Shown: one piece after another, positions 6,724-25,643 of the stretch | Numbering within the stretch: the first letter of the stretch is position 1 | How the letters are laid out: each line of letters opens with the position of its first letter | Origin: Prevotellaceae bacterium | Lineage (GTDB): Bacteria; Bacteroidota; Bacteroidia; Bacteroidales; UBA932 | Assembly: GCA_031269545.1 (NCBI GenBank) | Contig: JAISYZ010000206.1 | Coordinates: 1-42,025, forward strand | DNA: 42,025 nucleotides | Reading direction: 5' to 3' | Position numbers and translations under genes: made by a program | The notes under the pieces: generated by a model | Database searches by the model: none | Seen by the model: only the letters and a program-made list of their open reading frames with translations | What the model was told of the DNA's origin: nothing

Positions 6724-8811
6724 ATGGAAGATTATCAAGAAAATTTAGTAAACGAGGAACAGCCTGCCGTTGCAGAAGAAACCTCATACGAGCAACAGGA
6801 AACAAATGATGTTGCAGAAACTGTTGAAACAGACGAAACAATTGATGAACAGACTGAAACGTCAGAAATAACTAATGAACAGGCTGAAATGTCAGAAACA
6901 ACTGATGAACAGACTGAAATGTCAGAAGCAATTGATGAACAGATTGAAACGTCAGAAGCATTAAAAGCAACCGAAACGCTTGAAGTTGAAGCAGAAGACA
7001 AAAGCGAAAAAAGCGTAAAACGCAATGCGGTAAGCAATGCATCTGTGCCTGTCGAACAGTTTGACTGGGACAAACTCGATGAAGACGATTTGTACAAAGG
7101 CAATAAAGCCGAAATCGAAGCACAGTACAATCAAACATTATCGAAAGTTGCCGAAAACGAAATTGTAGAAGGCGTTGTTGTTGCTATCACAAAACGCGAA
7201 GTGATAGTGAATATTGGTTACAAAAGCGAAGGCGTGATAAGTATTACGGAATTTCGTTACAATCCCGATTTAAAAGTCGGAGACAAAATTGAAGTTTATG
7301 TCGAAACCGCCGAAGATAAACGCGGACAACTTATTTTATCGCATAAACAGGCGCGTGCGTTGCGCTCGTGGGACAGAGTAAACGAAGCGCTCGAAAACGA
7401 CGAAATAATAAAAGGTTATATCAAATGCCGCACCAAAGGCGGTATGATTGTCGATGTGTTTGGAATAGAAGCATTTTTGCCCGGTTCGCAAATTGACGTT
7501 AAACCTATACGCGACTACGATATGTTTGTTGATAAAACTATGGAATTTAAAGTTGTGAAAATAAATCAGGAATTTCGCAATGTAGTTGTATCGCACAAAG
7601 CGCTTATCGAAGCAGAAATTGAAGCGCAAAAGAAAGAAATCATTTCGCATCTCGAAAAAGGACAGGTACTTGAAGGAACAGTTAAAAATATCACATCTTA
7701 CGGAGTATTTATTGATCTTGGCGGAGTTGACGGACTTATTCATATCACCGACTTGTCGTGGGGACGCGTTACACATCCCGAAGAAGTTGTTGCGCTTGAC
7801 CAAAAAGTCAATGTAGTAATACTTGATTTCGATAATGAGAAAAAACGCATAGCGCTTGGAATAAAACAACTTACTCCACATCCTTGGGATTCGCTTGATA
7901 CGAATTTGAAAGTTGGCGACAAAGTTAAAGGGAAAGTTGTTGTCATGGCAGACTACGGCGCATTCATTGAAATATCTCCCGGAGTCGAAGGTTTGATACA
8001 CGTGTCGGAAATGTCGTGGTCGCAGCATCTTAGAAGCGCTCAGGATTTTATGAAAGTCGGCGACGAAGTTGAGGCTGTTATTCTGACAATCGACAGAGAC
8101 GAACGTAAAATGTCGCTCGGCATAAAACAGTTGAAAGAAGATCCATGGATTAACATCGAAGCAAAATATGCTGTCGGAAGCAAACATGTAGCAAAAGTTC
8201 GTAACTTTACAAACTTCGGTATATTTGTCGAAATAGAAGAAGGCGTTGATGGATTGATACATATAAGCGACTTGTCGTGGACGAAGAAAATAAAACATCC
8301 CGCAGAATTTACGCAAATAGGCTCTATGATTGATGTTCAGGTTCTCGAAATAGACAAGGAAAACCGCCGATTAAGTCTTGGACATAAACAATTGGAAGAA
8401 AATCCATGGGATGTATTCGAATCATTGTTTACAGTCGAATCAATTCACGAAGGAACGATTACCGAAATAAGCGACAAGGGAGCAATAATTTCGATGTCGT
8501 ACGGAGTCGAAGGTTTTGCGCCTGTTAAAGGATTGAAAAAACAGGATGGCTCGATAGCGAAGATAGATGAAAAACTTACTTTCAAAGTTATCGAATTTTC
8601 TAAAGCGGCTAAAAAAATCATAGTTTCGCATACCCGCACCTTTGAAGATGAAATGAAAGAAGCCGAAGCAAAAGAAAAAGCAACAAACGAAAGTTCGACA
8701 AAAGATGCTATAAAAAAAGTGCAGTCGTCAATCGAAAAAACAACGCTCGGCGATGTTGAAGCATTAGCCGCATTGAGAGACGAAATGGCAGAAAATCAAA
8801 GTGATAAATAA
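6724..8811 (+). CDS. rpsA: 30S ribosomal protein S1
   Basis: A 695-residue S1 protein that binds mRNA on the small ribosomal subunit through OB-fold S1 domains. Six S1 domains follow one another from about residue 140 to 650. The third to fifth are the most canonical, with GVFIDLGGVDGLIHITDLSW, GAFIEISPGVEGLIHVSEMSW and GIFVEIEEGVDGLIHISDLSW. The first about 105 residues are an acidic low-complexity extension with four 10-residue repeats. This makes the protein longer than the usual Bacteroidota S1 (about 600 residues) and E. coli S1 (557). The ATG at 6724 follows a promoter -7 box by about 70 bases. rnz starts 38 bases downstream and may be co-transcribed. Confidence 0.95.
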   Translation: MEDYQENLVNEEQPAVAEETSYEQQETNDVAETVETDETIDEQTETSEITNEQAEMSETTDEQTEMSEAIDEQIETSEALKATETLEVEAEDKSEKSVKRNAVSNASVPVEQFDWDKLDEDDLYKGNKAEIEAQYNQTLSKVAENEIVEGVVVAITKREVIVNIGYKSEGVISITEFRYNPDLKVGDKIEVYVETAEDKRGQLILSHKQARALRSWDRVNEALENDEIIKGYIKCRTKGGMIVDVFGIEAFLPGSQIDVKPIRDYDMFVDKTMEFKVVKINQEFRNVVVSHKALIEAEIEAQKKEIISHLEKGQVLEGTVKNITSYGVFIDLGGVDGLIHITDLSWGRVTHPEEVVALDQKVNVVILDFDNEKKRIALGIKQLTPHPWDSLDTNLKVGDKVKGKVVVMADYGAFIEISPGVEGLIHVSEMSWSQHLRSAQDFMKVGDEVEAVILTIDRDERKMSLGIKQLKEDPWINIEAKYAVGSKHVAKVRNFTNFGIFVEIEEGVDGLIHISDLSWTKKIKHPAEFTQIGSMIDVQVLEIDKENRRLSLGHKQLEENPWDVFESLFTVESIHEGTITEISDKGAIISMSYGVEGFAPVKGLKKQDGSIAKIDEKLTFKVIEFSKAAKKIIVSHTRTFEDEMKEAEAKEKATNESSTKDAIKKVQSSIEKTTLGDVEALAALRDEMAENQSDK
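6844..6963 (+). repeat. 30-bp tandem repeat (4 copies) inside rpsA
   Basis: Units starting at 6844, 6874, 6904 and 6934 are each 30 bp and encode DEQTETSEIT, NEQAEMSETT, DEQTEMSEAI and DEQIETSEAL. The copies differ at only a few bases, so the array looks recent and could vary in length between strains. Confidence 0.9.
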
Positions 8812-23917: not shown

Positions 23918-23984
23918 TTGTTGATTTGTTTGTTGATTCAGTTATAAAGTTTATCAAGTTTTTACATTAACCATTATTTTTCTC

Positions 23985-24039
23985 TTAATTGTTAATTGTT
24001 AATTGTTAATTGTTAATTGTTAATTGTTAATTGTTAATT
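23985..24039. repeat. Heptamer tandem repeat TTAATTG, seven copies plus a partial copy
   Basis: Seven exact TTAATTG units occupy 23985-24033 and a TTAATT remnant follows. The array lies between the glycosyltransferase start and the DUF6261-like gene, and supplies that gene's TAA stop (24027-24029). Because 7 is not a multiple of 3, every reading frame meets TAA within 21 bases in both directions. Confidence 0.95.
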
Positions 24040-24755
24040 AAATCATTCTTCGTTCTTTTTCCTGCGGTTTTGGCGAGTTGATTTTTGTAGCGTTCGCTTA
24101 CGGCGTTCAGTTCGTTTATAAGCGTTTTGTAACTGTCAATACCGTTTACCATAACCAGAGCCTCAATCATATTTAGCAACAATCGCAAAGCCCTGTCGGT
24201 TGCGAAGCGTGCTGTTTTCATTTTTGCTGCAGGGCGTCGGGCGATTTCGGCATATCGAGCAGCCATTAGTTGCCTGAATGTTTGATTTTCGGCGTCAAGT
24301 TGCGTCAGCCAGTCGTTCAGACTCAGCAGTTGCACCTCGGCGACATGCCTGTCGTTGAGTTCGCGCAGCAGGTCATCAATAGCAACCGTTTCTTCATCAA
24401 AAGTTTTTCGTGCGACATTGCCGTAATGTTCAATCACTGTATTTAATTTAGCGGCAGCGTGGCGCTTTGATGTGTCAAAATGATGCATTGCCGACTTTAC
24501 GCCATCAATAAAGCCGCGAAGAATACCGTCTCGAACATTATCCTGTGCATTGATTTCGCCTGTATATCCGCTTTTGCGAATTACGTCAAGCGCCGATACT
24601 TCCGTATCAAGCGCCGTCTTATAGTCATCGTACTGCTGCTGCACTCCAAGCGCTTGCGGGTTGTGCCTGACAATGATGCTGTCGAAAGTTTCGTTGTATT
24701 CTACATGCGCCTCGTTACGAAGTGCGGTGTAGTTGAATCTGATAAACTTTTTCAT
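24027..24755 (-). CDS. DUF6261-like protein
   Basis: A 242-residue soluble, mainly helical protein. The N-terminal FIRFNYTALRNEAHVEYNETF, a central HYGNVARKTFDEETVAI and the C-terminal NELNAVSERYKNQLA match my memory of DUF6261, a family of about 240 residues found in Bacteroidales with no assigned function. It has no leader and no enzymatic motif. It follows the 42-bp-repeat gene by 18 bases on the same strand, so both are likely read from the promoter at 25155-25201. The last residues and the stop codon are encoded by the TTAATTG heptamer array, so the C terminus may differ between strains. Family call from memory, not from a search. Confidence 0.7.
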   Translation of the reverse strand: MKKFIRFNYTALRNEAHVEYNETFDSIIVRHNPQALGVQQQYDDYKTALDTEVSALDVIRKSGYTGEINAQDNVRDGILRGFIDGVKSAMHHFDTSKRHAAAKLNTVIEHYGNVARKTFDEETVAIDDLLRELNDRHVAEVQLLSLNDWLTQLDAENQTFRQLMAARYAEIARRPAAKMKTARFATDRALRLLLNMIEALVMVNGIDSYKTLINELNAVSERYKNQLAKTAGKRTKNDLINN

Positions 24756-24773
24756 GTCAATTATGTTTTAAGG

Positions 24774-25124
24774 TTAAAAAATATGTTGTTTTTTGAATAC
24801 TGTATGCTGGTGAAAATGTAAATACTCTTGCATTGCGCTTTCACTTGTTTGGTGAAAATGCAAATCTGCTCGCATTGCTCTCTCACTTGTTTGGTGAAAA
24901 TGTAAATCCGCCCGTATTGCTCTTTCACTTGTTTGGTGAAAGTGTAAATCCATTTGCATTGCACTTTCACTCGTTTGGTGAAAACATAAATCCGCTCGCA
25001 TTGCACTTTCACTTGAGCGGTGAAGATACGAAGATAACTGACTGGATATTTTCATCTGCATAATGGAAGCGAAAATATGCCACATTGCAGATGTTTCGGC
25101 GGTATTTTCATACGATTTTTTCAT
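24774..25124 (-). CDS. Small protein built from 14-residue His-rich repeats
   Basis: 116 residues. The first about 38 (MKKSYENTAETSAMWHIFAS...) are unique. Five repeats with consensus S-E-S/R-A-M-R-A-D-L-H-F-H-Q-T follow, then a short tail. Each repeat is 42 bp. Three frames are open across the array. This one is preferred for two reasons: its ATG at 25124 lies 30 bases downstream of a consensus -7 box at 25155-25162, and most differences between units fall at its third codon positions (GAA/GAG, TTA/TTG, CAC/CAT, ACG/ACA, AGT/AGA/AGC). It ends 18 bases before the DUF6261-like gene. I do not know the family. The HFH pairs could bind metal, but that is speculation. Confidence 0.6.
   Translation of the reverse strand: MKKSYENTAETSAMWHIFASIMQMKISSQLSSYLHRSSESAMRADLCFHQTSESAMQMDLHFHQTSERAIRADLHFHQTSERAMRADLHFHQTSESAMQEYLHFHQHTVFKKQHIF
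24808..25028. repeat. 42-bp tandem repeat array
   Basis: The anchor TTTGGTGAAA recurs at 24848, 24890, 24932 and 24974, exactly 42 bases apart, with degenerate units before (about 24806) and after (about 25016). The unit length is a multiple of three, so frame is kept whatever the copy number. Confidence 0.95.
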
Positions 25125-25154
25125 TGTTAATATTTTTCTTCGATATTAATACCG

Positions 25155-25201
25155 CAAAGTTAATATAAAATCCTCAATTATACACAACCGGATAAAAATG
25201 T
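25155..25201 (-). promoter_or_regulatory. Promoter region of the repeat-protein/DUF6261-like operon
   Basis: On the reverse strand the -7 box TAACTTTG followed by C lies at 25162-25155, 30 bases before the ATG at 25124. The 47 bases 25201-25155 align without gaps to 37223-37269 upstream of the purine nucleoside phosphorylase gene, differing at about seven positions. A GTTG lies near the expected -33 position. The rest of 25202-25520 holds degenerate repeat debris (for example AATGAATAACGAA at about 25420) and no gene. Confidence 0.7.
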
Positions 25202-25524
25202 TTGAGAGACTTTATAGGGGAAATTTACGAATAAAAATTTTAATACCGACGATAGTTAAAACAATTTGAGGCGCTGTTCGTTTTCCGTTTGTATTTTATG
25301 GTTTTTCATTTTCAACTTGGTTGGCAAGCCTGACTGACTGTTGTTTGCTCGTTGATTTGTCCGTCTTTGCAAGGAACGCAGCGACAAGTCAACGAATAAT
25401 TGGTAATTAGCAAATAATAATGAATAACGAAACGAAGATATTAACTGAAAGCAAAGATTTTTATTATACTGCCGCATAAATTTTTCCTGTTAAAGACAAA
25501 CTGAGTAATCTCATAAAACACCAC

Positions 25525-25546
25525 AGCCCGCTTGAATTGGCGGGCT
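25525..25546 (-). terminator. Possible terminator after tRNA-Lys
   Basis: A 7-bp GC-rich stem (AGCCCGC at 25525-25531 with GCGGGCT at 25540-25546, 8-base loop) lies about 100 bases beyond the tRNA 3' end. On the reverse strand it is followed by GTGGTGTTTT, a weak T-run, so termination is plausible but not certain. Confidence 0.4.
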
Positions 25547-25643
25547 TGGAAGTAATTTAGAAGTAAATGTTTCTAAATTTTTCGCATCTATATAATTGTC
25601 TTTTATCTTTCAGATGTTTATATAAATGTATTTTGTTGTTTTG

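Follow-up and report, generated by a model that had tools for sequence, protein, structure and literature searches.

The window analysed here, a stretch of 42,025 nucleotides from a Prevotellaceae genome, carries a gene for a DUF6261 protein preceded by a tandem array of 42-bp units (Table 1). The protein scores 123.7 bits against the Pfam profile PF19775, whose curated cut-off is 27, and is therefore a member of the family. Upstream of the array lies a promoter of the Bacteroidetes type, its element TAACTTTG being 38 nt ahead of the ATG of a leader ORF, and the stop codon of this ORF is 18 bases ahead of the DUF6261 ATG at 24755. Three frames, two of them sense and one antisense, are open throughout the array, and its palindromes (TTTTCACCAAACAAGTGAAA and variants) are spaced at exactly 42 bp. 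An earlier sequence-only reading had described the array, an ORF running through it, the three open frames, the upstream promoter, a DUF6261-like gene 18 bases further on and a linked 7-bp array; all of these were confirmed, at the positions given in Table 1.

Table 1. Features of the DUF6261 locus in the window.
Feature	Coordinates	Strand	Remarks
DUF6261 gene	24027..24755	minus	242 aa; PF19775, E 8e-36
Tandem array, 5.0 units of 42 bp	24808..25015	minus	TRF score 290, 83% matches
Palindrome 1, TCTTCACCGCTCAAGTGAAA	25007..25026	.	direct reading; next one 42 bp away
Palindrome 2, TTTTCACCAAACGAGTGAAA	24965..24984	.	direct reading
Palindrome 3, CTTTCACCAAACAAGTGAAA	24923..24942	.	direct reading
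Palindrome 4, TTTTCACCAAACAAGTGAGA	24881..24900	.	direct reading
Palindrome 5, TTTTCACCAAACAAGTGAAA	24839..24858	.	direct reading
Bacteroidetes-type promoter	25155..25187	minus	TTG 25187-25185, TAACTTTG 25162-25155
Leader ORF, 116 aa, spans array	25124-24774	minus	possibly translated; peptide not conserved
7-bp array, TTAATTG x 7.9	23985-24039	.	overlaps DUF6261 gene end

No hairpin terminator was found between the array and the DUF6261 gene in the window, and an Rfam scan of the window gave a neighbouring tRNA alone above threshold. The leader RNA of the window is predicted to fold somewhat better than shuffled sequences (z -2.3). When the repeat unit was searched in its own genome for targets in trans, chance-like short matches were obtained and nothing beyond these. 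A conserved insertion site was considered and rejected, since the stretch 23938-25640 is not common to the relatives covered, a difference that may be due to rearrangement or to insertion. The valS gene with its tRNA, and a glycosyltransferase gene, are conserved across the genus. Elsewhere in the window there is a 30-bp tandem array of 4.1 copies (6835-6957).

DUF6261 genes and their upstream arrays in Bacteroidales

The genome of the window has four DUF6261 genes and other genomes of the genus have one to eight, with at least one gene present in 46 of the 393 Bacteroidales genomes sampled. The relatives, mostly MAGs, are labelled as Prevotellaceae, Tannerella, Dysgonamonadaceae, Candidatus Symbiothrix and Proteiniphilum, together with Paludibacter. 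Most of them probably come from termite guts, as the isolate names and the occurrence of Symbiothrix suggest; these MAGs are called the termite group below, and judging from these relatives the host of the window is probably also of termite-gut origin. The family has a cultured carrier in the oral Prevotella nigrescens FDAARGOS_1486.

About 160 DUF6261 genes were collected for comparison, 148 of them distinct and with enough upstream DNA. An array with a period of 40-44 bp lies at most 400 bp upstream of 103 of these 148 genes (70%) as opposed to 13 of 746 control genes sampled from five genomes (1.7%), counts in which related loci are not independent of each other and which depend on the settings of Tandem Repeats Finder and on MAG assemblies that may shorten arrays. 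Downstream, an array is found at 7 of 158 genes. The array is a frequent companion of the DUF6261 family in Bacteroidales, both gut and environmental ones, and, as the sequence-only reading had proposed, array and gene form a fast-varying unit that recurs in other genomes. That reading would have been refuted by DUF6261 genes with no repeat upstream, and on this point the outcome is divided, 45 genes (30%) being without an array and 103 with one. As far as could be found the unit is undescribed so far: no published account of it was found, DUF6261 is named in passing by one paper, and PF19775 covers the domain alone, with the linked array missing from any description found.

Among 85 distinct upstream arrays the period is 42 bp in 58, 41 bp in 26 and 43 bp in one, and the number of units is about 2-12 (median 4.8). 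Unit sequences are unrelated between loci, with a median best-rotation similarity of 0.41. Where the proteins are more than about 80% identical the arrays are mostly very similar as well; at 76-79% identity some pairs (L021/L030 and L030/L038) are at background. Near relatives can differ by whole units, as seen for L009 with 5.0 and L037 with 4.0 copies, whose proteins are 94% identical. In P. nigrescens the layout is the same, with 3.6 units of 41 bp and the palindrome TGCCGAA-g-TTCGGCA. The gene start given by RefSeq falls inside the array in this species, and a 120-bp direct repeat (L275 2165-2560; 3.3 copies, annotated as a hypothetical protein) is located just upstream of the array. In one subgroup of the family (L012, L022, L023, L031 and L044) a 41-bp array lies 3' of the gene; its units are alike between genomes (ATGTTAAATCG...GGCAAA) and are also present at L085 15267-15356.

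Over the 300 bp that precede each of 80 arrays, the element TAnnTTTG has counts of 48 in the sense and 17 in the antisense direction. The full promoter, TTG-N17-22-TAnnTTTG, is ahead of 15 of these 80 arrays (antisense 6), so that the statement that a promoter precedes the array is a statistical one and does not hold locus by locus. The spacer from array to gene has a median of 81.5 bp and is AT-rich, and terminators are not in excess there (11 of 81 loci, 9 in the reversed control). It would seem that the array usually lies between a Bacteroidetes promoter and the DUF6261 gene. Given the sense-biased promoter element before it and the lack of a terminator excess after it, the array is probably transcribed in the leader of the gene.

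The AlphaFold2 model of the DUF6261 protein from the window (pLDDT 93.6, pTM 0.69) is all-helical with two four-helix groups. Searching with this model against the PDB and the BFVD viral models gave best E-values of 0.02 or worse, sequence-profile searches of the family assigned no function, and neither a helix-turn-helix nor any other DNA-binding domain was recognised by Pfam. The proteins are mostly acidic, with a median pI of 5.8. A Pfam scan of all members returned DUF6261 plus scattered weak matches and nothing else; in the family alignment some longer paralogs are seen to have a C-terminal extension like the extracellular Ig-like repeats of Bacteroidetes. An internal duplication was unsupported by profile comparison, and a phage origin was rejected, the protein having no match in IMG/VR or PHROGs. 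One unverified 6.3-kb scaffold labelled 'Bacteriophage sp.' matches DUF6261 and is without a 41-42-bp array. A defence system was likewise discarded, PADLOC yielding weak partial matches alone.

Coding capacity, palindromes and other repeats

The sequence-only reading had taken the array for a His-rich repeat protein with variation mostly at third codon positions. In the window 10 of the 18 variant letters are on third positions (p = 0.15, column permutation), and the bias does not emerge within a larger set of arrays: for 42 arrays whose sense strand has an ORF beginning with ATG, counted in the frame of the longest such ORF, the codon positions vary 228/264/271 times (mean third share 0.356, p = 0.45), and among 52 testable 42-bp arrays the variation has no codon periodicity, with one array below p 0.05. 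Between related loci a weak signal survives in a few pairs, such as L005/L004 with 18/18/32 changes. Nor are frame-preserving units general. In at least 11 arrays every sense frame is closed and, as 41 is not a multiple of three, the third of the arrays with this period cannot keep a 14-residue repeat. The peptides of the array ORFs are unrelated between loci, the His-rich motif is confined to the locus of the window, and no support was obtained for metal-binding HFH repeats across the family. The period of 41, the closed frames and the absent codon bias rule against a His-rich repeat protein as a conserved entity. Sense stop triplets number 66 where 100 are expected from a dinucleotide null (antisense 95, expected 108), and in 11 cases among the termite-group loci with 42-bp units an ORF that spans the array opens with an ATG 30-48 nt past the promoter element. 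These are hints that ribosomes pass the array in part of the family, and in these termite-group loci the leader ORF is possibly translated; if it is, the act of translation may be more important than the product.

Repeats of other kinds also occur in these genomes. Near DUF6261 genes of this genus there are 1.59 7-bp arrays per 10 kb compared with 0.04-0.20 in control contigs from the same genus, the density being approximate because some loci overlap, and in this respect the suggestion of repeat arrays at both ends of the unit was well founded. The 7-bp arrays, 8-40 times denser at DUF6261 loci, vary in unit sequence (TTAATTG in the window) and are found on either side of the gene. In one genome, G218 (L173-L192), arrays of 40-43 bp number about 22 in 400 kb and mostly lie apart from DUF6261; these orphan arrays are mostly intergenic between unrelated genes, with unrelated units that are mostly without palindromes. 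Seven 21-bp arrays per 400 kb are also present in G218. In two relatives that lack DUF6261, arrays of 40-43 bp come to 3 and 0 per 200 kb. Long 21-bp arrays of unrelated sequence are present at L054 3972-4283, L075 4196-4469, L076 19343-19664 and L080 4096-4671, and in L076 and L080 a common ORF start (...FAVFCETMPTIHKTLSFIFN...) enters different 21-bp repeats. Near the DUF6261 loci L030, from the window's own genome, and L071 there are 78-bp repeats coding for protein repeats of the KYDDKGN type.

Palindromes with arms of at least 6 are present in 66 of 112 units of the DUF6261 arrays (59%), as against 12% in shuffles and 5 of 21 units (24%) in orphan arrays (Fisher p 0.004), leaving about 40% of the units with no palindrome of this arm length. 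With arms of at least 7 the figures are 41% of units, 3.3% in shuffles and 1 of 21 in orphan arrays. The gaps are nearly all 0-6, and 0-2 in 23 of the 66. Within arrays the arms are less variable than the rest of the unit (10.7% and 16.6% respectively, p 3e-21). Comparison of homologous arrays gave 14 compensatory pair changes and 3 non-complementary double changes, a count that carries no formal probability since the stems were chosen on one member of a pair and some pairs share members; within arrays the trend is less marked (compensatory in 29 of 68 double changes). Mismatches in the arms are G-U 83 times and A-C 76 times within arrays, and 1 and 8 times between loci. Pairing in a sense-strand RNA should favour G-U, so the similar numbers of the two point to a strand-symmetric signal like that of a DNA site. 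The outer arms read TTKC...GMAA in 36 of 99 non-redundant units, where 17.6 would be expected. An array in genome G003 (L268 1406-1518) has a palindrome, CTTTCACCAATCAAGTGAAAC, similar to those of the window; the neighbouring gene resembles adenylosuccinate synthase, and no DUF6261 gene was seen within the surrounding 3 kb.

A possible phased operator and its alternatives

Taken together, the spacing of about four helical turns, the one dyad per unit, the strand symmetry and the adjacency to a promoter suggest phased DNA sites controlling the gene. Our preferred explanation, which we put forward tentatively, is that the array consists of helically phased DNA dyads in the leader of the DUF6261 gene, acting as its private operator. 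A unit of 41-42 bp corresponds to about four turns of the DNA helix and would place the palindromes on one helix face. A dimeric protein, perhaps DUF6261 itself, would bind them cooperatively and set transcription of the gene, the number of units would tune the output, and the paralog-specific sequence of the palindromes would keep the copies in one genome from cross-regulating. This explanation is supported by the observed association of array and gene, the fixed period, the palindromes with their strand-symmetric conservation, the turnover between loci, the position after the promoter, the whole-unit copy differences between near relatives and the matching layout in P. nigrescens. From these we infer the binding, the identity of the binder, the regulation and the insulation between paralogs.

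Plasmid iterons and partition-site arrays are whole-turn direct repeats beside the gene of a cognate autoregulating DNA-binding protein, and the DUF6261 loci are like them in having phased direct repeats with dyads near a gene for a candidate binder. They differ from iterons in being chromosomal, in the many paralogs per genome and in the absence of a recognised DNA-binding domain. This absence, together with the acidity of the proteins, counts against an operator, and the palindromes may be bound by some other protein, or by none. The same is true of the 30% of DUF6261 genes without an array and the roughly 40% of units without a palindrome of 6-letter arms, and of the L021/L030 and L030/L038 arrays, which at 76-79% protein identity are already unrelated, faster than most operator-protein pairs drift. 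The array is apparently transcribed, which suggests an unusual place for an operator, though one that would be possible for a roadblock. Perfect palindromes can, moreover, come from template switching without selection.

A mutational origin is the main rival to an operator. Some process in these genomes would then produce minisatellites roughly two or four turns of the helix in length, their inverted repeats would be perfected by quasi-palindrome correction, and the DUF6261 leaders would be no more than permissive sites; we think this unlikely, though well worth weighing. It is in keeping with the orphan arrays of the same period in G218, the clustering of 7-bp arrays at DUF6261 loci, the fast turnover of the arrays and the tandem repeats of 22, 23 and 41 nt known in P. 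gingivalis (PMC4596501), but would not lead one to expect arrays at 70% of DUF6261 genes in many families and 1.7% of controls, nearly all of them upstream, with palindromes far commoner than in orphan arrays and arms that are conserved within arrays. The P. gingivalis BrickBuilt and 464/PgRS minisatellite MITEs consist of units of 23 and 41 nt repeated in tandem between genes, with promoter activity and predicted stem loops in the case of BrickBuilt (PMC4596501). Although they share with the DUF6261 arrays the order Bacteroidales, the intergenic position and a similar unit length, they have one unit sequence per family, terminal repeats and a mobile-element-like character, whereas at DUF6261 genes the unit differs from locus to locus and the array goes with a single gene family; a unit sequence shared among copies was not found (median similarity 0.41). 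We regard as improbable that the array works as RNA, in the form of tandem hairpins in a leader or small RNA that DUF6261 binds or processes in the manner of a type III toxin-antitoxin system. The systems ToxIN, CptIN and TenpIN also have a promoter followed by a locus-specific tandem array upstream of one gene, with a similar range of periods (PMC8860590, PMC4627078), and the folding of the window's leader agrees with this. However, G-U mismatches do not exceed A-C, many of the palindromes have gaps of only 0-2, and the hairpin terminator that type III systems have between repeats and gene is not in excess at DUF6261 loci; on the lack of a G-U and a terminator excess, type III antitoxins and RNA hairpins were rejected. 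The toxins are endoribonucleases of the ToxN/CptN/TenpN type with the type II RNase toxin fold, whereas DUF6261 is all-helical, matched no known toxin fold and had no ToxN among the Foldseek or Pfam matches of the window's protein, and the antitoxins are RNA pseudoknots, unlike the strand-symmetric palindromes of the DUF6261 arrays.

The sequence-only reading itself, in which the array would code for a repeat protein and share an operon with DUF6261, appears quite improbable, the 11 ORFs of the 42-bp termite group, the shortage of sense stops, the third-position surplus in some related pairs and the gene-like G+C of the arrays being set against a period of 41 in a third of the arrays, at least 11 arrays closed in the sense frames, no overall third-position bias and peptides unrelated between loci. 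At most the array would be read by ribosomes as a leader, with a peptide of no consequence. Very doubtful in our view is a contingency locus, that is a length-variable 5' leader in which the number of units tunes the translation of DUF6261 or the stability of its transcript with no specific binder. The location of the array in the leader, the whole-unit copy differences between relatives and leader ORFs that could couple translation would all suit such a leader, but the fixed period and the strand-symmetric palindromes are left unexplained by it.

Going beyond the operator itself, each DUF6261 paralog might form a private pair with its array, the protein reading its own palindromes, while the entire array is rewritten even from one close relative to another and the protein fold and the 41-42-bp spacing are kept; we consider this rather improbable. 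If it were true, such pairs would be self-addressed DNA-binding units in which the address changes faster than the reader, and the protein would have a new helical DNA-binding fold. The phased palindrome array provides a first handle on the role of the multi-copy DUF6261 family, and a partner that is testable. The DUF6261 arrays are a case in which the spacing and symmetry of DNA are kept and the sequence is free, and so large a natural set of arrays could separate selection from the mutation mechanism.
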